In this document: in pieces, positions 5,525 through 18,242 of the stretch
Layout: every line of letters begins with the position of its first letter
Numbering within the stretch: position 1 is the stretch's first letter
Notes under the pieces: model-generated
Seen by the model: only the letters and a program-made list of their open reading frames with translations
The model's database searches: none
Told to the model about the DNA's origin: nothing
Source: Burkholderiales bacterium
GTDB lineage: Bacteria > Pseudomonadota > Gammaproteobacteria > Burkholderiales > Burkholderiaceae_D
Direction: 5' to 3'
DNA length: 18,242 nucleotides
NCBI GenBank assembly: GCA_005800405.1
Contig: SYFN01000160.1
Coordinates: 1-18,242 of the forward strand
Position numbers and translations under genes: made by a program

Positions 5525-6436
5525 CTACGGTTCTTTGATATCTTTTTCTTCACGTACTTGTCGCGCGATGGCCTCGACCTGCTCATCGCTCATGCCGAAC
5601 TGGCGCTTGAGTATTTGCAGGCGCGCGTTTTCTTCCTCGGTCACGATGCCATCCGCCAGCGCTTCCCATATTTCAGTTTCATACATGACTTCACGTCGCT
5701 CTACCTGAGCGGTATACGCAGTTGCGACAACACCGGTAAGAATCGCTGCCAGCGCAATCGCCAACACCTGCGTGAGGACCACCAAAATCACACCGAAAAT
5801 CGTGATCGGATCCACGTTACCCCAGCCAGAAATAATCGTCAGCAAATACCACTTCATGGTCGCTGGTATCGAGGGGAAAACCTCGGGCTGCACATGACCC
5901 TCGGCGATATAAATCAGCGAAGAAAACAGCAGGCAGGAAATCAGCAGCAGGAACAAGGCCGATGCAAACGAATCCCGTTCTGCCTTGACCGCCTCAATCA
6001 GGTCGGAGAGCGCACTGTTATAACGCGACAGCTTGAAAATCCGCATCAGACGGAACAATCGCAGGAAGCGCAGATCTAGCCCCGGGAACAGCAGCTGTAA
6101 GTAGAACGGCACTGTGCCGAAGAAATCGATAAATCCGTAGAAGCTAAATATATATTCTTTGCGACCACGCCATGCACCACCGTCCTGCGCTGAATATTTG
6201 ACGCCATATGACCACACCCGGAGTACATACTCCAGCGTGAAGATCATCACACTCACCACATCAAAAATATGGAAATACGTCACGTAGGCCTCGTGCAGCT
6301 CGTGCACTGATTCCAGAATAATGGCAACCACATTCAAAACCACCACGCTTGCAATGAAAATTTCGCAAGCACGAGCTGCCTTGTTTTCTACTGAGCCTTC
6401 CAGCAGGTCGTAAATGCGCGTTTGAAGGGATTTCAT
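5525..6436 (-). CDS. Voltage-sensor ion channel with non-canonical pore signature (paralogue A)
   Basis: A 303-residue six-helix channel: S1 about 22-42, S2 55-77, S3 98-117, S4 121-138, S5 154-179, S6 211-242. S4 carries arginines every third residue (R123, R126, R129, R132, then K135, R138), so the voltage sensor looks intact. The pore signature is T200-I-I-S-G-W-G-N207 rather than TxxSVGYGD: one residue fewer, Tyr replaced by Trp, and Asn for Asp. Ion selectivity is therefore uncertain and K+ should not be assumed. The cytoplasmic tail (250-303) carries LADGIVTEEE and a helix-loop-helix shared with paralogue B (13318-14208). A perfect TATAAT lies upstream on the minus strand, but no clear ribosome binding site precedes the ATG. 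The TerC-family gene lies 171 bases downstream. Confidence 0.88.
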   Translation of the reverse strand: MKSLQTRIYDLLEGSVENKAARACEIFIASVVVLNVVAIILESVHELHEAYVTYFHIFDVVSVMIFTLEYVLRVWSYGVKYSAQDGGAWRGRKEYIFSFYGFIDFFGTVPFYLQLLFPGLDLRFLRLFRLMRIFKLSRYNSALSDLIEAVKAERDSFASALFLLLISCLLFSSLIYIAEGHVQPEVFPSIPATMKWYLLTIISGWGNVDPITIFGVILVVLTQVLAIALAAILTGVVATAYTAQVERREVMYETEIWEALADGIVTEEENARLQILKRQFGMSDEQVEAIARQVREEKDIKEP

Positions 6437-6762: not shown

Positions 6763-8367
6763 ATGCAGGCAGATATCAGCGTTACTCCAGTCCCGAGCAC
6801 ATTCCGCCGGAAAATGTACAGTGCCTTGCTGGACGAGACCTCCGATACCGGGGCGCGGGGCGCGATCAATCGTTTAATTTTTTTGTTAATTCTGCTGAAC
6901 TTGCTGGCTTTGTTGCTGGAGTCAGCGCCCGAGATTGAGGCTGAGTATCGTCAGCTATTTCAATGGTTTGACCTTTTCTCTGTTGCGATCTTCTCGGTGG
7001 AGTATCTGTTGCGCCTGTATCTGGCACCGGAGGATCCCGATTTCGCCCGCGCGTCGATGCCGCGGTTGCAGTATGCAACCAGCTTCATGGGGATTATCGA
7101 TCTGCTGGCCATACTGCCATTCTTCCTCGGCTTGTTCTTCATTCTCGATTCCCGCCTGCTGCGGGTCTTGCGTCTGCTGCGCATCCTTAAAATCACACAA
7201 GTGGTACGCGAAGGCCTGCGCGAGTTCAGAGAGCTCAATCGAGGACGCAAACTGCGTCAACGGGTACACGCGCTGCTGTTCCCCAGTGAATACGGTGGTC
7301 GGCTCAATGAGGTTACCGAAGTCTTTCTCATTTTCTGGATTGTGCTGTCGGTGTTGTCGATTGTGCTGGAATCAGTCGAGAGCATACGCGTGCATTTCGG
7401 CGCGCATTTCGCGTGGCTGGACGCCGCATCGTTCATTGTTTTTGCGACTGAATACGCGCTGCGCATTTATGCTTATCCCGAGCAAGATCGTGCCAGCAGC
7501 GCGCTAATGCAGCGCTTCCGCTTTGTCAAATCACCCTCCGGTCTGCTAGATCTGGTTGCCATTCTGCCCTTCATGCTGGAGCTGGTGCTGGGCGGCACAC
7601 TCGATCTGCGCTTCCTGCGAATCATCCGCATGGTACGTCTGCTGAAGCTCGGTCGCTATTCCTCGGCCAGCGACACCATGTTCGCCGTGATCCGTAAAGA
7701 GACGCCGGTGTTGCTGGCGGCGCTGTTCATGATCGCTTTGCTGGTGTTCATGATGGCGGCATTTGGTTATTTGCTGGAACGTGATGCGCAACCGGATAAA
7801 TTCGAAAACATTCCGCAGTCGATTTACTGGGCGGTGATTACGCTGGCCTCAGTCGGCTATGGCGACATATCACCGGTCACGTCCGGCGGACGATTGATTA
7901 CCGTCGTGCTGGCCTTGGTGGGCATTGGCCTCTTCGCAATCCCGGCGGCGATCATGGCCTCGGGCTTTACCGATCAGTTGCGCCTGAATCGCGAAAAGCT
8001 CAAGCAGGATTTGCTGGCAGAGGCGCGTGCCAGTGTCTTTGACGAAGCCGCGTGTGAAGCCTTTATCCACAATGCGAAGCATCATCATCTGACGGTCGCC
8101 GAAATAAATCAGCTGATCGATGAAATAGAAAAGGGCGACGACAGTATTGAAACCACTCGCGGTGAATTCGAATCGCTGGCGCTGGCTGCTAAAAATCCCG
8201 AATTCGCACTCGCGCAGTACCACACGCTGGTGTCCCGGCTGCGTGAACTCTCAGCGGTGGCAGATGGTGCTTATATCCGTGAGCACCTTGACAAGCCGGG
8301 GCGAGCCACTGATCTGGATCGCGCGATATGGCAACAGATCGACCGTTCACGTTCAGACAAAGGATAG
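6763..8367 (+). CDS. Ion channel with two voltage-sensor domains and one canonical K+ pore
   Basis: A 534-residue membrane protein with an unusual layout. A first voltage-sensor domain (S1 36-54, S2 68-88, S3 107-127, S4 130-147 with R131, R134, R137, R140) has no pore of its own. A second one follows (S1 184-206, S2 219-238, S3 258-277, S4 281-297 with R283, R286, R289, R292), then S5 (312-338), pore helix and filter T360-L-A-S-V-G-Y-G-D368, and S6 (376-404). The filter is that of a K+ channel. The linker after the first S4 (148-180) is basic. The cytoplasmic C-terminus (405-534) is helical and charged, with no RCK or cyclic-nucleotide domain I recognise. Standard Kv-type proteins have one sensor per subunit. 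There is no evident Shine-Dalgarno sequence. The oxidoreductase starts 59 bases after the stop. Confidence 0.9.
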   Translation: MQADISVTPVPSTFRRKMYSALLDETSDTGARGAINRLIFLLILLNLLALLLESAPEIEAEYRQLFQWFDLFSVAIFSVEYLLRLYLAPEDPDFARASMPRLQYATSFMGIIDLLAILPFFLGLFFILDSRLLRVLRLLRILKITQVVREGLREFRELNRGRKLRQRVHALLFPSEYGGRLNEVTEVFLIFWIVLSVLSIVLESVESIRVHFGAHFAWLDAASFIVFATEYALRIYAYPEQDRASSALMQRFRFVKSPSGLLDLVAILPFMLELVLGGTLDLRFLRIIRMVRLLKLGRYSSASDTMFAVIRKETPVLLAALFMIALLVFMMAAFGYLLERDAQPDKFENIPQSIYWAVITLASVGYGDISPVTSGGRLITVVLALVGIGLFAIPAAIMASGFTDQLRLNREKLKQDLLAEARASVFDEAACEAFIHNAKHHHLTVAEINQLIDEIEKGDDSIETTRGEFESLALAAKNPEFALAQYHTLVSRLRELSAVADGAYIREHLDKPGRATDLDRAIWQQIDRSRSDKG

Positions 8368-10550: not shown

Positions 10551-11837
10551 ATGAACACCCTACTCATCCTCATTTTCGTTGTCGCTTATGCGGCGATCGC
10601 TTTCGAGCATCCGATCAAAATCAATAAATCGGCCTCGGCTTTGCTCGGTGCCGGTCTGTTGTGGAGCATCTACGCAGTCATGACCGGCGATTCCGGCCAT
10701 GTGAACGAGCATTTGGGCGAGACACTGATTGGCACCGCGCAGATTGTGTTCTTTCTGATGGGGGCTATGACGATCGTGGAAGTCATTGATGCGCATGACG
10801 GTTTTGATGTCGTGACCGCGCGCATCCGTACCACCAGCCTGAGCTCGCTGATGTGGCTGGTATGTATCGCGACGTTCTTTCTCAGTGCCGTACTTGACAA
10901 CCTCACCACCGCCATTGTGATGGTGTCGCTGGTGAAAAAACTACTGGACTCTCGCGATGAGCGTCTTTTGTTTGCGGGCATGATCGTGATTGCTGCCAAC
11001 GCCGGTGGCGCCTGGTCGCCGATTGGTGATGTCACCACCACCATGCTGTGGATTGGCGGGCAGATCACGGCCTCGTCCATTATCGGCGCGCTGTTCTTTC
11101 CTGCCTTGGTTAACCTGCTCGTACCAGTCGCGATCATCAGTTACTCGCTGCGTGGAAAGCCTGTGGTCGAGCCGCGTCAGGATGCCAACCAACCCCAAGG
11201 CACAGGTACTTCAGAGCGTGAGCGCAACATCATGTTCTTTTTGGGCTTGGGGGTACTGATTGCGGTGCCTGCGTTCAAAACCATTACGTACCTGCCGCCG
11301 TTCATGGGCGTGCTGCTGGGTCTGGGTGTGCTGTGGCTGGTGGGCGATCTTTTACATGGCAACAAGACTGAGGAGGAGCGTGAGCACCTCAATCTGACCA
11401 GTGCGCTCAATCGCATCGACATGGCGTCGATTGTGTTTTTCATTGGCATTCTGCTGGCCGTGGCGACACTGGAGCACTCCGGCATCCTGCCGGCACTGGC
11501 CGGCTGGCTTGATACGACCGTCGGCAGACAAGATCTGATCGTGCTGTTGATTGGTATCGTCAGCGCCATCGTCGATAACGTGCCGTTGGTGGCGGCGGCG
11601 ATCGGCATGTACAGCCTTGATCAATACGGGCCGAACAGTTTCTTGTGGCAGTTTCTCGCCTATTGCGCGGGTACGGGTGGTTCGATTTTGATTATTGGTT
11701 CTGCCGCTGGTGTGGCTGCAATGGGGCTGGAGCGCATTGACTTTGTCTGGTACGTGAAAAAAATCAGTGGGCTGGCGATTGCCGGTTATTTTGCGGGTGC
11801 GCTGGCTTATATCATCCAGCTCACGCTTTTCGGCTGA
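10551..11837 (+). CDS. nhaD: Na+/H+ antiporter NhaD
   Basis: A 428-residue inner-membrane antiporter of the NhaD family (ion transporter superfamily), which exchanges internal Na+ or Li+ for external H+ and is common in halophilic and alkaliphilic proteobacteria. Recognisable motifs are LDNLTTAIVM (115-124) and ANAGGAWSPIGDVTTTML (149-166) in the first half, and VDNVPLVAAAIGM (341-353) and GTGGSILIIGSAAG (374-387) in the second, giving the inverted two-half arrangement of the superfamily. The N-terminus FEHPIKINKSASALL is also typical. The acidic loop around 272-279 lies between the halves. The length is near the family norm. It is 200 bases upstream of a CPA1 antiporter on the same strand. 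The start has no strong Shine-Dalgarno sequence. Confidence 0.93.
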   Translation: MNTLLILIFVVAYAAIAFEHPIKINKSASALLGAGLLWSIYAVMTGDSGHVNEHLGETLIGTAQIVFFLMGAMTIVEVIDAHDGFDVVTARIRTTSLSSLMWLVCIATFFLSAVLDNLTTAIVMVSLVKKLLDSRDERLLFAGMIVIAANAGGAWSPIGDVTTTMLWIGGQITASSIIGALFFPALVNLLVPVAIISYSLRGKPVVEPRQDANQPQGTGTSERERNIMFFLGLGVLIAVPAFKTITYLPPFMGVLLGLGVLWLVGDLLHGNKTEEEREHLNLTSALNRIDMASIVFFIGILLAVATLEHSGILPALAGWLDTTVGRQDLIVLLIGIVSAIVDNVPLVAAAIGMYSLDQYGPNSFLWQFLAYCAGTGGSILIIGSAAGVAAMGLERIDFVWYVKKISGLAIAGYFAGALAYIIQLTLFG

Positions 11838-12037: not shown

Positions 12038-13312
12038 ATGTTAGAAATCACCGCTACTTGTCTGGTGCTTACGGCACTGCTGGCCTACCTGAATTTCCGC
12101 TACATCCGCCTGCCGATCACCATCGGTGTGATGGTGACCGCCTTGCTCTTGTCGCTGGTGATTATCTTGCTCAATCTTGCAGGGGCAGATTTCGGCTTGC
12201 ACCGCAAGATGGAGACCATGCTGCGCACCATCGATTTTTCCAATGTGCTGATGCAAGGGATGCTGTCTTTCCTGCTCTTCGCGGGTGCCTTGCACATCGA
12301 TCTCTCCGAGTTGCGCGCCTATCGCTGGCAGGTACTGATACTAGCGTTTTTCTCGACGCTGTTGTCTACCTTTATCGTCGGTCTGGCGGCATGGTATGTG
12401 CTGCCCTTCATCGGCATTTCCATGCCGCTGCTCTATTGCCTGTTGTTCGGTGCGCTGATTTCACCAACCGATCCTATCGCGGTGATGGGTATTCTGAAGT
12501 CAGCGGGCATTCCCAAAAATCTGGAGCTCGTGATCTCGGGCGAGTCGCTCTTCAATGATGGTGTGGGTGTGGTGATTTTTTCCATCCTGATGAGCATGCT
12601 GCTCATCGGCGAAGCGCCGACTTTCCACGAAGGCCTGGGCTTGCTGATGCACGAAGCCGGTGGCGGCCTGCTTTATGGTCTGCTGATCGGTTACATCACC
12701 TTTCATCTGCTGCGTAGTATCGATAACTATCAGGTAGAGGTCATGATCACGCTCGCTGCCGTGATGGGTGGCTACGCGCTGGCGAGCAAACTGCATGTCT
12801 CGGGACCTTTGGCCATGGTGGTCGCCGGTCTGGTGGTCGGCAATCATGGGCGCGAGCTGGCGATGTCGGACACCACCCGGCTCTACGTGGACATGTTCTG
12901 GGAAATGATCGATGACATTCTCAATGCCGTCTTGTTTGTACTGATCGGCATGGAGGTCATGTTGATTGCCTTCTCCTGGAGCTTGTTTGCCGCTGGTCTG
13001 GCGATGGTCATCATGACGCTGATTGCACGTGCGCTGACCGTCTGGGTCCCCGTGCACTACCTGCCGGGCTATTTCAAGCTGCCCAGAGGTGCGGGCTTGG
13101 TGCTCACCTGGGGTGGTCTGCGCGGCGGTATTTCGGTGGCACTGGCGCTCTCCCTGCCATCGGGGAATGAGCGTGTTGTCATACTCTCGCTGACCTATTG
13201 CATCGTGGTTGTATCGATTCTGGTGCAGGGACTATCGGTCGGCAAGCTCGCCGAGCGGGTCACCGGGCCTGAAGAGGCGGGTGCAGAGACTTCGGGCGGC
13301 CAAGCCACCTGA
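12038..13312 (+). CDS. CPA1-family cation/H+ antiporter (NhaP type)
   Basis: A 424-residue inner-membrane antiporter of the monovalent cation:proton antiporter-1 family. Key motifs are FLLFAGALHIDL (78-89), GALISPTDPIAV (138-149), GESLFNDGVGVV (168-179) with the ion-binding Asn173-Asp174 pair of electroneutral CPA1 proteins, and TWGGLRGGISVALALSLP (357-374). The protein ends soon after the last membrane helix, so it lacks the long cytoplasmic tail of eukaryotic NHE or some bacterial NhaP2-type proteins. Na+/H+ or K+/H+ exchange are both possible; the sequence does not decide. It follows nhaD on the same strand and ends five bases before the convergent end of channel paralogue B. Its translation start lacks a Shine-Dalgarno sequence. 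Confidence 0.92.
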   Translation: MLEITATCLVLTALLAYLNFRYIRLPITIGVMVTALLLSLVIILLNLAGADFGLHRKMETMLRTIDFSNVLMQGMLSFLLFAGALHIDLSELRAYRWQVLILAFFSTLLSTFIVGLAAWYVLPFIGISMPLLYCLLFGALISPTDPIAVMGILKSAGIPKNLELVISGESLFNDGVGVVIFSILMSMLLIGEAPTFHEGLGLLMHEAGGGLLYGLLIGYITFHLLRSIDNYQVEVMITLAAVMGGYALASKLHVSGPLAMVVAGLVVGNHGRELAMSDTTRLYVDMFWEMIDDILNAVLFVLIGMEVMLIAFSWSLFAAGLAMVIMTLIARALTVWVPVHYLPGYFKLPRGAGLVLTWGGLRGGISVALALSLPSGNERVVILSLTYCIVVVSILVQGLSVGKLAERVTGPEEAGAETSGGQAT

Positions 13313-13317
13313 AGCGT

Positions 13318-14208
13318 TTATTTCTCTTCCTTGCGTATTTCTTCCATCATCGCTTCGACTTGCTGCTCCGTCAGTCGGTACTGACGACGCAGCCTATCCA
13401 GCGTGTCTTTTTCAGCGTCGGTGACGATACCGTCGGCCAGTGCGCGACGCAACTGCTGACCAAAGGCGGCTTTTTTGCGCGAGAGCTGATTGGAAAATGC
13501 GGACGCCACGATACCCGTCATGATCGCCGCCATACACACCCCAAGAAAGCCCGTGATCAAAGCGATGATATCACCGGCCAGTGTCAGCTCTTCCACGTTG
13601 CCATAGCCGGAGGTGATGGTGATCACTGCCCAGTAAATACAGTGGGGGATGGAGCCAAAATGCTCCGGTTGATTGTGACCTTCTGCAAAATACATCAGCG
13701 AGGCCGACACAATCGTTGCAATCAATAGCAAGAAGAGGGCGGAGGTAAATGCTTTTTTCTCTGAGGCGACGGCGTGAAACAGATCCTGCAATGCGGTGTT
13801 GTACTTCGAGAGTTTCAGGATACGCAGCAGACGCAACACGCGCAGCACACGCAAATCCAGATACGGGAACAAGAAGTGCAGATAGAAGGGCGCGGTTGCA
13901 ATGAAATCGATTAGCCCAAAGAAACTGAACACATATTCCTTGCGGCCTTTCCACGCGCCGCCTTGCTCGGGCGTGTAGCGTGCGCCATAGGACCAGGTTC
14001 TGAGTACGTATTCAGCCGAGAAGAACATCACGCTCCAGAATTCGAACTCAGGGAAAAAATCTTTGAAAGCTTCATGGATTTCATGCACCGAATCCAGAAC
14101 GACGGCGGCACAATTGGTCAGCACCACAATGGTGATCACCCATTCAAGAATTCGGCTGGTGCTGTCGTGCGAGGTCCCGTCTAGGATCTCCATGATGCGG
14201 CGTTTCAT
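13318..14208 (-). CDS. Voltage-sensor ion channel with non-canonical pore signature (paralogue B)
   Basis: A 296-residue channel clearly paralogous to that at 5525-6436 (shared WSYG, GGAW-GRKEY-FSF, IDF, SALFLLLI, AEGH-QPE). S1 is about 22-40, S2 55-74, S3 97-114, S4 118-133 (R120, R123, R126, R129, K132), S5 155-177, S6 208-238. The pore signature is T197-I-T-S-G-Y-G-N204, again one residue shorter than the canonical TxxSVGYGD. The C-terminus has LADGIVTDAE and a helix-loop-helix as in paralogue A. The start at 14208 has GAGGAA upstream; a GTG at 14262 would add 18 residues taken from the terminator region and is unlikely. It lies downstream of the DUF1538/PII operon but is separated from it by an intrinsic terminator. 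Confidence 0.88.
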   Translation of the reverse strand: MKRRIMEILDGTSHDSTSRILEWVITIVVLTNCAAVVLDSVHEIHEAFKDFFPEFEFWSVMFFSAEYVLRTWSYGARYTPEQGGAWKGRKEYVFSFFGLIDFIATAPFYLHFLFPYLDLRVLRVLRLLRILKLSKYNTALQDLFHAVASEKKAFTSALFLLLIATIVSASLMYFAEGHNQPEHFGSIPHCIYWAVITITSGYGNVEELTLAGDIIALITGFLGVCMAAIMTGIVASAFSNQLSRKKAAFGQQLRRALADGIVTDAEKDTLDRLRRQYRLTEQQVEAMMEEIRKEEK

Positions 14209-14254
14209 TACGCTTTTTCCTCTTGTACTTTTTTCATGCAAATGCTGAACCTCT

Positions 14255-14291
14255 AAAAACACAGGCCGGCCGATACAACCGGCCAGCCTGT
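14255..14291 (-). terminator. Intrinsic terminator after the coiled-coil gene
   Basis: On the plus strand ACAGGC (14261-14266), C, GGCCG (14268-14272), a 7-base loop, CGGCC (14280-14284), A, GCCTGT (14286-14291) form an 11-base-pair stem with one mismatch. Read on the minus strand, the stem is followed after one G by five T (14259 to 14255). This should end transcription from the DUF1538/PII operon before the channel gene, apart from read-through. Confidence 0.85.
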
Positions 14292-14328
14292 CTGCTGCTT
14301 TGTGTCGTCACCGGGACGGCAGCACACT

Positions 14329-15057
14329 TTAGCTGCCGATTTTGTCGGACACGCGCTTCTGGTTTGCATCGACCTTCTCGCGCAGCGAGATCACCTGATC
14401 ACGCATCTCGTTACCGGCATCCTGCATGTTGTTGAGCTTCTCTTTCAGTGTCTCACCGGTCGAGAAGGTATCGTCGATGATCTTGCGAGTTTCGACCGAG
14501 CTGTTGCGGATGCTGCGAACCAGTTCTTCGATCTCGTTGGCACGCATCTCGTTGCCGTGATGCGAGGCGCTGTCCATCTGCTGCTTGAGCTCACCATCGA
14601 GCCACTGGCCATTGGAATCCGCGATTTCGTCGATGTAGTTGACCATCTCTTCATTGAGTTCGTAGAAGGTCTCGCTGACTTCGCCCAGCGCCTTGATGGC
14701 TTCGGCCATTTTCAGGGCGATGGTGGCCATCTTGCGATTGATCTTGCTACGATGGTCCAGATACTCCACCTTGACACGGTTGGCCATGGAGAGCTGGAAG
14801 GCTTCCTGGTCGGTGTCGGTGGGGTTCAGTTGATCGATCATCATCAGACGATTACGGAACACATCGTCGGTGGTGCGCATGATGAGTTCGCGGTTACCGC
14901 CGGCGTTGACCAGATAACTCTGCTGGGCGTCAGTGATATTTTCCTCGATCGTGCTTCGCGCGACCTGAATCTGACCAACGTTGAATTGAACAATCGCCTC
15001 GATATCAAAAATTGCGCGCTTGTTTTTTGCGATCATGTTTTTAATTACATCACTCAT
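14329..15057 (-). CDS. Coiled-coil cytoplasmic protein of unknown function in the DUF1538/PII operon
   Basis: I do not recognise this 242-residue protein. It has no signal peptide or membrane segment and is almost entirely predicted helix with heptad-like spacing: about 10-75, 84-145 (VSETFYELNEEMVNYIDEIA) and 150-240. The segment GNEMR occurs twice (168-172 and 215-219), each followed by an acidic helix, suggesting a short internal repeat. It is highly charged and almost free of cysteine. The ATG at 15057 has AGGAGA six bases upstream. It is the fourth gene of a minus-strand cluster, 51 bases after PII-like protein 2, and is followed by a strong terminator. Position and lack of enzymatic motifs suggest a scaffold or regulator of the DUF1538 transporter, which is inference only. 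Confidence 0.8.
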   Translation of the reverse strand: MSDVIKNMIAKNKRAIFDIEAIVQFNVGQIQVARSTIEENITDAQQSYLVNAGGNRELIMRTTDDVFRNRLMMIDQLNPTDTDQEAFQLSMANRVKVEYLDHRSKINRKMATIALKMAEAIKALGEVSETFYELNEEMVNYIDEIADSNGQWLDGELKQQMDSASHHGNEMRANEIEELVRSIRNSSVETRKIIDDTFSTGETLKEKLNNMQDAGNEMRDQVISLREKVDANQKRVSDKIGS

Positions 15058-15108
15058 GAAATTCTCCTGGTTCGAGTGGCTGTTGTATAAGGTTTCGCAA
15101 AAGGCGCG

Positions 15109-15474
15109 TCAGGCGCCCACGTGCGAATCTTCCGGCAACGCGATGGGACTGGAACGGGTGAGGCGATTCACATAAATCAAGCCCTGGCCTTGCTCGTCCA
15201 TCTTGGCCTCTTCGTACAGCATTTTGTAAATGTAGTCGGCCTGGTCGGCTGATACGGTGGCATGCAGTATCTCGGTCTTGGGAATCTCGGGCAGATTGCC
15301 TGCCAGAGAAGCACGACCGATCGGGTTACCGCGAACGCTATAGAAATAGCATTCGTTGATGCCCTTGTGATGCAGCAGCTCCATCAGCTTAGATGCACCG
15401 CCCTCATAAAGGATGCAGGTGATCTGACGCGTATAGTCGATGTACGGAATATCCGGTTTATCGTTCTGACTCAT
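15109..15474 (-). CDS. Divergent PII-like (GlnB superfamily) protein 2
   Basis: A 121-residue protein with the beta-alpha-beta-beta-alpha-beta pattern of PII proteins: strand QITCILYEGG (17-26), helix ASKLMELLHHKG (27-38), strand ECYFYSVRGN (41-50), a loop where the T-loop would be (51-65), strand EILHATVSA (68-76), helix DQADYIYKMLYEEA (77-90), strand GQGLIYVNRL (96-105). The opening C-I-L-Y-E-G-G-A-S-K-L is very PII-like. The T-loop is short and lacks the uridylylated Tyr motif of GlnB/GlnK, so control by GlnD is unlikely; nucleotide or another ligand binding remains possible. AGGACA lies upstream of the start. It begins 27 bases after PII-like protein 1, and the pair presumably acts on the DUF1538 protein. 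Confidence 0.82.
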   Translation of the reverse strand: MSQNDKPDIPYIDYTRQITCILYEGGASKLMELLHHKGINECYFYSVRGNPIGRASLAGNLPEIPKTEILHATVSADQADYIYKMLYEEAKMDEQGQGLIYVNRLTRSSPIALPEDSHVGA

Positions 15475-15501
15475 GATGTTGTCCTGTCGTCGTTTAGGCG
15501 A

Positions 15502-15852
15502 TTAATCTTTGAGCAGATTCGGCGGAATGTAGGTGGCCGCCTGCAGCAGTGGTGTTACATAGATGTAACCCATGCCCGGTGTATCCAGCCTGCCCGCGAG
15601 GAATATGCGCTCGAAGATACGATCAGTTTGGTCTTGCGGGACCATCACGCTGATCACTTCGCGTTCCACGTCAACGGCGACGCCCAGAATACCGAGGCGC
15701 TCACGCACGCCGGTACCCACGCCCATGTGCACGGTCGAACCCTGCACGCCCACTTCCAGTAGCGAAGTGTTGATGGTGTCGGCGAGGCCTTTCTGCACGA
15801 CACAAGTAATCAGCGACACCTCGCTAATATTGGTAACTTTACGCTTTGCCAT
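15502..15852 (-). CDS. Divergent PII-like (GlnB superfamily) protein 1
   Basis: A 116-residue protein with a PII-type fold pattern: strand EVSLITCVVQKG (11-22), helix ADTINTSLLEVG (24-35), strand GSTVHMGVGTG (38-48), short loop RERLGILGVAVDVE (50-63), strand REVISVMVP (64-72), helix QTDRIFERIFLAG (75-87), strand GMGYIYVTPL (93-102). The ending GMGYIYVTPL corresponds to GDGKIFVLP of PII. It differs from its neighbour in the T-loop region (GVGTGVRERLG), so the two probably sense different ligands or form hetero-oligomers. The start at 15852 follows AAAAGGGG on the minus strand; a longer frame to 15978 overlaps the DUF1538 gene and is not supported. It lies 43 bases after the DUF1538 stop. Confidence 0.82.
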   Translation of the reverse strand: MAKRKVTNISEVSLITCVVQKGLADTINTSLLEVGVQGSTVHMGVGTGVRERLGILGVAVDVEREVISVMVPQDQTDRIFERIFLAGRLDTPGMGYIYVTPLLQAATYIPPNLLKD

Positions 15853-15895
15853 TCGTTTCCCCTTTTTTCTATTCTGTTGATTCGGTGACGGTTGA

Positions 15896-17683
15896 TCAGG
15901 CCTGTGCAGCGGCCAATTCTTTCTTGACCTTGTACTGGACATAGACGCCCAGGCCGAGAACAGCCACGATCGGTGCAATGGATGCAGCAGCCAGGATGCC
16001 GAAACCTTCGACAGCGTTCACCGCGCCACCAAAGCCCAGACCCATAGCCAGCACCAGCGGAACGGTCACTGGACCTGTCGTCACGCCCGCGCTATCCCAG
16101 CCTATGTTCACGAACTCTTCAGACGATAAAACGGTCAGGCTAACTGCGATGATGTAGCCCGGCACCAGTATGTAGAGCAGGTTGTAGTCGAACACCAGCT
16201 TGGTCACGCCGAGCATGATGCCCGTCGAGACGCCTGCAGCAACTGCGTACATCAACATGGACTTCTTGAACGAGCCATTGGTCATGTTCTGTACGGTAGC
16301 GCCGAGTGCATTCAATGCGGGTTCAGCCATCGTTGCACCAAACCCAAGTATCCAGGCAAAGACGCAGGAAATCACGATCCCCCAGAAGCTGCCATACAGC
16401 GGTCCGTAAGCGCCGGTTTCACTTGGAACGCGGAGCGATTCGGGCAGTGTGATGTTCGTGAACGAACCGGGGATGATGTTACCAGCCTGCTCACCAAGCG
16501 CGGACAAGCCATACTTCAGACCGATGTTGAACAAGCACATACCGACGACCGACAGCACGAGGCCGTAGCAGATAATGAAAGCATTCGGCAGACGGGTGCG
16601 CAGTACACCGAACAGGATGATCATCAGGAAGATCACGAGCGGCACAATCGCCTGCACGCCATCTTTGATTGGGCCCATCAGGATTTGATTCCAAACCGTG
16701 GAACTGTCTCCGCCAGCCGCTTTCATTGCCTCGTACACGACGGCATTGGCTGCCTTCATCTCGTCAACGGAGAGCGTCGCGCCGAAATAGGCGCCAAGAC
16801 CGAGCACGGCAACCACTGGATAGATAGAGGCCAGTGTCACGATACCGAAGCCCGAAAGTGAACTGTCGCCTTTGCCACCGGAGTTCGCCACGCCAATACC
16901 CAGCGCGAGCACCAGAGGCACGGTCACAGGACCCGTGGTTACGCCGCCGCAGTCCCACGCAAGACCAACAATGGATGCAAGGTTGCTGTCCAAGGCGCAG
17001 TAGCCTGTCAGAATTACACCCGGTAGCAGGCTCCAATAGATGAGGGGCTTAAGGCTCCAATTATTCAGGAAGCGCATCGTGCCGATGATGGCTGCGACGC
17101 CCACGCCAAACCCGACCAGCAACACCGTCATGTCGGTTCGCACCATCAAGAGGTAGAAGAGGGCAGGAGCTTTTTCCGGATCTACCAGCGCACCAGCCAG
17201 TTTCAGCGTACCAATCGCGGGTTCCGCGTAGGTTACGCCAATGCCGAGCAGGCCAGCGATAAACAGAACCCCGACCAAAGGCAGTTTCTTCGGCAAGGTA
17301 TTGCCGATGATGTCGCCGAAGGGCATCAGGCCCAGTTTCAGGCCTTCCATGAAGACCATCAAGCCGATAATCACGGCCACCAGACCTGCGGTAATTTCAG
17401 CGGCGCCCATGATAGAGCGCTGCAATACGAGAATCTGGAACAGCACCAGATAAGCAGCGAGCGGAAACACCGCCGCAATCTGCTCCATGATCCGAACGCT
17501 CAGATAAGGCTGCAGCAAATTGTAGATGTCCGTGCCTGCCAACTTCAGTTTTTCTGGCTTTATCGGGATTTCATTCCCGTTTTTATCCAGTTTTGGCCTC
17601 GGAATTAATTTCGAGTAGCTGATCGAGTCGGAATCGACCGTCACAGCCTGCACGTAGTCACCGAAGCGTATATTTTTAGCCAT
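15896..17683 (-). CDS. DUF1538 membrane protein, two repeats fused (UmpAB-like putative cation/H+ antiporter)
   Basis: A 595-residue polytopic membrane protein built of two DUF1538 halves. The signature WD-GGVTTGPVTVPLVLA occurs at 243-260 (WDCGGVTTGPV) and 529-546 (WDSAGVTTGPV), and AEPAIGTLK (153-161) is matched by AEPALNALG (453-461). A hydrophilic N-terminus of about 60 residues precedes the first helix. From memory, separate DUF1538 proteins UmpA and UmpB of a Halomonas were reported as a two-component Na+(Li+,K+)/H+ antiporter; here the halves are one polypeptide. Function by homology is an inference, but nearby NhaD and CPA1 antiporters fit. The start has AAGGGGGGAG immediately upstream and a promoter at 17720-17749. 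It heads an operon with two PII-like genes and a coiled-coil gene. Confidence 0.9.
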   Translation of the reverse strand: MAKNIRFGDYVQAVTVDSDSISYSKLIPRPKLDKNGNEIPIKPEKLKLAGTDIYNLLQPYLSVRIMEQIAAVFPLAAYLVLFQILVLQRSIMGAAEITAGLVAVIIGLMVFMEGLKLGLMPFGDIIGNTLPKKLPLVGVLFIAGLLGIGVTYAEPAIGTLKLAGALVDPEKAPALFYLLMVRTDMTVLLVGFGVGVAAIIGTMRFLNNWSLKPLIYWSLLPGVILTGYCALDSNLASIVGLAWDCGGVTTGPVTVPLVLALGIGVANSGGKGDSSLSGFGIVTLASIYPVVAVLGLGAYFGATLSVDEMKAANAVVYEAMKAAGGDSSTVWNQILMGPIKDGVQAIVPLVIFLMIILFGVLRTRLPNAFIICYGLVLSVVGMCLFNIGLKYGLSALGEQAGNIIPGSFTNITLPESLRVPSETGAYGPLYGSFWGIVISCVFAWILGFGATMAEPALNALGATVQNMTNGSFKKSMLMYAVAAGVSTGIMLGVTKLVFDYNLLYILVPGYIIAVSLTVLSSEEFVNIGWDSAGVTTGPVTVPLVLAMGLGFGGAVNAVEGFGILAAASIAPIVAVLGLGVYVQYKVKKELAAAQA

Positions 17684-18170: not shown

Positions 18171-18242
18171 ATGAGAAAAGTCATCATCTTGGGCGCCGGT
18201 CAGGTCGGGTCCTCCGTCGCCTCCAATCTGGTCTCCGAAGAC
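18171..18242 (+). CDS. trkA: TrkA, NAD-binding regulatory subunit of the Trk K+ uptake system (N-terminal fragment)
   Basis: The first 24 residues begin MRKVIILGAGQVGSSVASNL and continue to the window edge. The Rossmann motif GAGQVG (8-13) directly after the initial strand, followed by ASNLVSED, is the usual TrkA start. TrkA is a cytoplasmic protein with RCK domains that binds NAD(H) or ATP and gates the membrane subunit TrkH or TrkG for K+ uptake. The start lacks a Shine-Dalgarno sequence; the bases before it are A-rich. In many gammaproteobacteria trkA follows rsmB; here it is first behind its own promoter and a long leader. Only 72 bases are visible, so the family call rests on the N-terminus. 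Confidence 0.85.
   Translation, partial: MRKVIILGAGQVGSSVASNLVSED

Follow-up and report, generated by a model that had tools for sequence, protein, structure and literature searches.

A fused DUF1538 protein encoded with two PII-like proteins: a candidate PII-controlled cation/H+ antiporter system in a Burkholderiales bacterium

Why is the gene for a predicted ion exchanger followed by genes for two different PII-like proteins? The question is raised by a gene cluster in the window, an 18,242-nucleotide (nt) stretch from a Burkholderiales bacterium that is the entire contig SYFN01000160.1 of assembly GCA_005800405.1 (genome 2.16 Mb, 71% complete). The cluster encodes a fused DUF1538 protein, a conserved PII-like protein (PIIa), a divergent PII-like protein (PIIb) and a long helical protein, termed here the rod protein. 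PII proteins have been studied mainly as sensors of nitrogen and carbon. A near-constant link of PII genes to the little-studied DUF1538 family of membrane proteins, which spans several bacterial groups and has one member with demonstrated cation/H+ antiport, suggests an undescribed way of regulating bacterial ion exchange. The four genes, given below with their lengths in amino acids (aa), and a channel gene downstream all lie on the minus strand as the original prediction had placed them.

15896..17683, minus strand: fused DUF1538 (UmpA-UmpB-like) protein, 595 aa, identified with Pfam and NCBIfam
15502..15852, minus strand: PIIa, conserved PII-like protein, 116 aa, identified by PF00543 (E 2e-7) and by the residue survey
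15109..15474, minus strand: PIIb, divergent PII-like protein, 121 aa, identified by profile-profile comparison with PIIa (E 1e-19), by a profile match to a PII structure in the PDB and by 86 homologues
14329..15057, minus strand: rod protein, 242 aa, three long helices predicted by AlphaFold2 (AF2), with a homologue search

How general is this arrangement? GTDB species genomes were scanned with five aligned fused proteins as the query, and the best 80 of the 415 relatives found were used; all counts out of 80 refer to this set. Recurrent linkage in other genomes, which the original prediction had posed as its own refutation test, was observed: two tandem PII genes lie 3' of the fused gene in all 74 loci with at least 1000 nt of downstream sequence, and the set that includes the rod gene was found in 40 of the 80. 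In the other six loci, two PII genes are seen where 954 and 957 nt follow the fused gene, one in the Opitutales locus (299 nt), and none in the three with 155 nt or less. Taxon labels, which are those of the submitters' record titles and in some cases look wrong (one metagenome-assembled genome is labelled Bordetella), comprise 67 Proteobacteria, 9 Nitrospinota and one each of Nitrospirae, Bdellovibrionales, Opitutales and Elusimicrobia; SAR116, Planktomarina and Nitrospina are marine labels among the carriers. Within the genus the distribution is patchy, the fused protein being present in 10 of 20 other genomes. The order fused DUF1538-PIIa-PIIb-rod was seen in all eight same-genus loci with enough flank (one rod gene is cut by the contig end), and the other same-genus loci are cut within the first gene. 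In 41 of 77 loci, many of them from close SAR116 relatives, the stop codon that ends the fused gene shares bases with an ATG in frame with PIIa, an overlap that coupled translation would lead one to expect.

Is the association with PII restricted to the fused form? In a phylum-wide survey, DUF1538 was detected in 88 of 397 genomes, the window's own included; the systems inspected, 77 in all, come from 73 of the remaining 87 genomes. The 14 genomes with weaker matches were left out, as were most second systems in genomes with at least four matches, so that the 77 lean to strong matches. A PII gene lies directly 3' in 72 of the 77 systems and 5' in two, and none was detected in three. Split umpA/umpB-like pairs have exactly one PII gene 3' in 65 of 69 cases; in the split pair of G187 the PII gene lies just 5', and in G438 it lies 5' with a CBS-like gene between. 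Both long fused systems in this survey were tallied with one PII each: the second PII of G148 was found by another profile, and the stretch for G120 ends early. The linkage is therefore stronger than had been claimed, since ordinary DUF1538 pairs share it. Chance co-location was rejected on the counts for the fused loci (74 of 74) and for the phylum-wide systems (72 of 77); four same-genus genomes that were searched hold 2 to 4 PF00543 matches each, so that random adjacency to a PII gene would be rare. A rule of two PIIs for every fused DUF1538 was also rejected, as short fused forms have one. By eye, short CBS-like genes adjoin PII in five DUF1538 loci (L053, L054, L055, L056 and L065).

The linkage extends to plasmids, where PII adjoins DUF1538 in all nine records inspected. 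In the three alphaproteobacterial records (two species) this PII consists of one domain. All six Bacillota records (five species) have a single open reading frame (ORF) that encodes two PII domains, and in one record the first domain is weak. The annotation 'P-II family nitrogen regulator' appears in all seven annotated plasmid records, four of them from Bacillota. Clostridial ORFs with two PII domains stand directly after DUF1538 in L205, L207, L208, L210, L211 and L212, with a diverged first domain and a better conserved second one. The presence of two PII domains in one Bacillota ORF argues for PII-PII contact. Orthology of PIIb with the first Clostridial domain was considered and rejected: FastTree groups the Clostridial domains together, though with a support of only 0.67-0.71, and that of PIIa itself is only 0.55.

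Do PIIa and PIIb belong to the PII proteins, and could they sense as PII proteins usually do? That two different PII-like proteins are encoded, as predicted, is supported for PIIa by its PF00543 match, which lies above the Pfam cut-off, and for PIIb by profile comparison. The PIIb sequence alone gave no Pfam match. The profile of its family aligned with that of PIIa over 108 columns, and its best match in the PDB was a PII chain (E 4e-4). When 20 PIIb members were scanned singly, four matched PF00543 at E 0.1 or better, the window PIIb not among them; PIIb is thus placed in the PII superfamily by profile only. Compared over every second locus (38 of 76, giving 703 pairs), PIIa has a median identity of 0.56 and PIIb of 0.26, and PIIa was the more conserved in 703 of 703 pairs.

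In GlnB/GlnK, R38, Q39, K90, R101 and R103 are residues for ATP and 2-oxoglutarate, and Y51 is the residue that is uridylylated. PIIa and PIIb from 77 loci were surveyed at these positions against GlnB/GlnK of the same genus, in an alignment whose K58 column is gapped. Equivalents of K90, R103 and Y51 were found in none of the 77 PIIa proteins; R101 is replaced by T, R38 by I or V, and Q39 by R in all of them. G35, G37, G87 and G89 are retained in 77 of 77, and T29 in 75. In PIIb, for which the alignment is loose, K90 and Y51 are absent throughout, R101 is present in 7 of 77 and R103 in 2, and both B-loop glycines are retained in just 17. The phylum survey showed the same tendency: among its 79 PII ORFs, which include two from long fused systems and repeat samples of some loci, K90, R101 and Y51 occur in none and R103 in three. 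Sensing through the canonical PII pocket, one way in which the original prediction could be understood, is not supported by the PIIa sequences, and because the canonical residues are lost, sensing of ATP and 2-oxoglutarate is not to be assumed. The residues mark a separate PII branch that has a pocket of its own. The PIIa profile matched SbtB chains weakly (E about 0.7, some 40 residues aligned). Two ordinary GlnB/GlnK-type PIIs are encoded elsewhere in each of G003 and G020, the most complete pair among the same-genus genomes searched, which indicates that PIIa is an extra, dedicated copy.

What is the protein that these PIIs accompany? The fused protein matches PF07556 (DUF1538) with E 8e-100 and 332.9 bits against a cut-off of 22.6, and two copies lie in the 595-aa chain. 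NCBIfam UmpA matches best on residues 66-297 and UmpB on 340-588; the scores are far below the equivalog cut-offs (190 against 490 bits and 154 against 500 bits), and these equivalogs model separate subunits, the window protein being fused. An N-terminal extension of about 60 aa, containing Lys, is mostly absent from split UmpA/UmpB ORFs: with the earliest start codons, a median of 61 residues precedes the first DUF1538 core in fused proteins and 6 in split ones. In the AF2 model (predicted local distance difference test score, pLDDT, 80.5; predicted template modelling score, pTM, 0.81), the extension is poorly ordered and of low confidence. A DUF1538 tree of a subsample placed each half of the long fused form in one group (support 100 and 99), with a warning of long branches. 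The assignment of DUF1538 as a cation/H+ antiporter has experimental precedent in one split pair and extends by inference to the fused form: co-expression of umpA and umpB alone sufficed to give E. coli Na+(Li+,K+)/H+ antiport (PMC5484666). The 4.2-kb clone described there held one cut and three intact ORFs, the last two being umpA and umpB, and no PII was among the intact ORFs (PMC5484666).

From these observations a mechanism can be proposed. The fused UmpA-UmpB protein would act as a monovalent-cation/H+ antiporter. PIIa, with its highly conserved non-canonical pocket and T-loop, would form a hetero-oligomer with the fast-evolving PIIb, PIIa serving as the sensor and PIIb as a structural or docking partner; a mixed oligomer is suggested by the two PII genes together with the Bacillota two-domain ORF. 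The oligomer would dock at the cytoplasmic face of the antiporter, perhaps helped by the N-terminal extension, and would gate it, most likely as a brake, in a manner set by a ligand other than ATP and 2-oxoglutarate. A docking brake is the simplest model because a PII T-loop enters the transporter in AmtB-GlnK and SbtA-SbtB; the T-loop of GlnK enters AmtB, and that of SbtB partly blocks SbtA (PMC8352866). A modulator or brake also fits the activity of UmpAB without a PII partner, and the ion-related neighbours described below (trkA/trkH-like, NhaP-like and channel genes) were counted in favour of an antiporter. That the fused antiporter is gated, and most likely braked, by a dedicated docking PIIa/PIIb heteromer is considered reasonably probable. 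The sequences directly show gene content, order and recurrence, the domain identities, the lost residues and the extension. We infer rather than observe that the ions of the fused form are those of UmpAB, that PIIa binds PIIb and both bind the antiporter, which way the control works, and what the extension and the rod protein do.

Several observations weigh against such a brake. With scores below the NCBIfam cut-offs, the fused protein bears only a remote likeness to the characterised UmpAB, and comparison with solved folds gave no convincing match; the fused clade appears deep and apart from split UmpAB, so that its substrate could differ. Short fused forms carry one PII, and fusion therefore does not require two. 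No PII was detected beside three of the 77 systems (G139, G144 and G170). The fast divergence of PIIb may mean that it does something else, and with the phosphate-binding and uridylylation residues of PIIa lost, the usual PII switch cannot be assumed. A report of SbtA regulation in vivo independent of SbtB is also cited in PMC8352866.

The depth of the fused clade and its distance from the UmpA and UmpB cut-offs would also suit a fused two-PII system for another substrate (bicarbonate, ammonium or another ion), with the PIIs reporting carbon or nitrogen state as in SbtA-SbtB and AmtB-GlnK; the known PII-gated transporters named here carry carbon or nitrogen compounds (PMC8352866). This alternative is nevertheless judged unlikely, given that several recurrent neighbours are Na+/K+ related and that PIIa has lost the canonical ATP/2-oxoglutarate residues. 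It is quite improbable that the PIIs are co-expressed sensors acting elsewhere, for example on GlnB/GlnK or enzymes, and not on the antiporter: DUF1538 adjacency is near-constant while other neighbours vary, and the reading frames overlap in over half of the loci compared, although PII proteins have many targets and the fast evolution of PIIb fits a fixed interface poorly. Little credence is also given to PIIs that are activators or assembly factors, the fused antiporter being inactive without them. Fixed gene order and overlapping frames would agree with such a role, but split UmpAB worked in E. coli in the absence of its own PII (PMC5484666); the host presumably supplied PIIs of E. coli, and the fused clade could behave differently.

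If the gating by a PIIa/PIIb heteromer holds, monovalent-cation or pH homeostasis would join the processes under PII control, and the one characterised DUF1538 antiporter would gain a missing third component. A broader reading is offered tentatively and falls short of probable: the DUF1538 family as a whole would consist of PII-controlled cation/H+ antiporters, the fused clade having a heteromeric two-PII switch (conserved sensor, divergent partner) with a ligand other than ATP/2-oxoglutarate, and the two-domain PII of Clostridia being separate and analogous; these PIIs would then form a branch dedicated to monovalent-cation and pH homeostasis. DUF1538 is included, alongside TrkH and KdpA, in a table of key pH-adaptation features in PMC13255231.

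What does the fourth gene contribute? For the coiled-coil protein of the original prediction, AF2 predicts a three-helix rod (helices of 73-81 residues, pLDDT 94.2). No Pfam or NCBIfam family was found above cut-off for the rod protein. Its homologues number 365, of which 120 are among the matches listed. The rod gene is present in 36 of the 66 loci with 1900 nt of room, and it directly follows PIIb in all 40 named loci that carry it. An order-wide search found it in 7 of 399 genomes, the window's own included: four other full-length rods all stand in a fused DUF1538-PIIa-PIIb-rod arrangement, two of them followed by two channel genes, and the remaining two matches are a stop-containing fragment close to the end of a contig and a weak coil match. 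In the proposed mechanism the rod protein would be a lineage-specific accessory, perhaps a scaffold.

Where does the transcription unit end, and is the channel part of it? The remaining features are as follows.

14261..14291, minus strand: terminator-like hairpin with a T-run (14 pairs, 9 G-C), probable end of the four-gene unit
13318..14208, minus strand: Ion_trans channel with variant filter TITSGYGN (PF00520, E 1e-29)
18171..18242, plus strand: first part of a divergent trkA-like gene that runs off the contig (MRKVIILGAGQVGSSVASNLVSED; by eye)

Within the stretch of the original prediction, 13318..17683, the operon is narrowed to 14329-17683 because the hairpin at 14291-14261 parts the channel from the four genes; the channel is probably in a separate transcription unit in the window. 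In a scan for hairpins of this type, 10 sites were found against 5.3 +/- 2.2 in shuffles, which is suggestive only. The ribosome binding sites of the four genes read AAGGGGGGAGC-ATG, AAAGGGGAAACGA-ATG, ACAGGACAACATC-ATG and CCAGGAGAATTTC-ATG; by eye, three are strong, as had been noted for all, and that of PIIb is moderate. The channel start is likelier ATG 14208 than GTG 14262. The canonical filter of K+ channels is of the TVGYGD type, from which that of the window channel departs. Of the 36 rod loci that extend at least 400 nt past the rod gene, 11 have a channel that starts within this distance; all 11 bear betaproteobacterial labels, and in 7 of them the channels are tandem pairs, the first filter being S/T/A-GYGN and the second mostly of GWGN type. 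As a partner of the module, the channel thus has its recurrence in its favour, and its probable separate transcription and restriction to betaproteobacterial labels against it. A paralogue with filter TIISGWGN lies elsewhere in the window (5525-6436, minus strand), and its relatives (63-66% identical) stand in tandem with a GYGN-type channel after the rod gene in seven named loci. The GYGN/GWGN pairs hint at a heteromeric channel.

Many genes of the window are for ion transport. A plus-strand gene at 6763-8367 encodes a 534-aa protein with two Ion_trans stretches, in which two S4-like arginine motifs and one canonical filter, SVGYGD, were seen by eye; it possibly combines two voltage-sensor domains with one pore. 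A CitMHS gene (10551-11837, plus strand), presumably NhaD-like, and a Na_H_Exchanger (NhaP-like) gene (12038-13312, plus strand) both run towards the module. By eye, MRKVIILGAGQVGSSVASNLVSED resembles the start of a complete trkA-like gene in L049, and in loci of the same genus trkA-like and trkH-like genes are oriented divergently from the module (4 and 5 of the 80). In L059 (9133-16640, minus strand), the genes for fused DUF1538, PIIa, PIIb, trkA, trkH, umpA, umpB and PII follow one another on one strand, trkA being identified by Pfam and trkH by eye. In 8 of the 80 loci the neighbours include an NhaP-like gene with a product of about 820 aa, and both of those scanned combine Na_H_Exchanger with cNMP_binding. 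Further recurrent genes, Mrp-like ones included, were seen by eye in SAR116 loci; these are close relatives, and simple synteny may account for them.

How does this module compare with known systems? Two different PIIs beside the protein that they control are also found in nitrogenase systems, where NifI1 and NifI2 act as a heteromer; the likeness is to PIIa/PIIb, and the difference is that their target is an enzyme and that they respond to 2-oxoglutarate. UmpAB of Halomonas zhaodongensis belongs to the same DUF1538 family and has an UmpA-like and then an UmpB-like half, but is a split pair, whereas the window form is fused, carries the N-terminal extension and comes with a pair of PII genes; neither P-II nor PII occurs as a term in the main text of the UmpAB paper (PMC5484666). 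No link between DUF1538 and PII was found in the open-access literature searched, a scope outside which most subscription journals lie. SbtA-SbtB likewise has transporter and PII-like genes in one operon, and its T-loop insertion is the model for the docking proposed here; SbtA is a bicarbonate transporter of another family with one PII-like protein, SbtB, which binds AMP/cAMP (PMC8352866). In PII-NG/CzcABC, a PII variant is likewise clustered with a proton-driven cation exporter, but the pump is for heavy metals and has one PII, against two here (PMC7726332). Overall, the description of the module as undescribed applies to part of it: transporters under PII control are already known, as is a proton/metal antiporter clustered with a PII variant, and the pairing of DUF1538 with PII appears new in the open-access literature searched.

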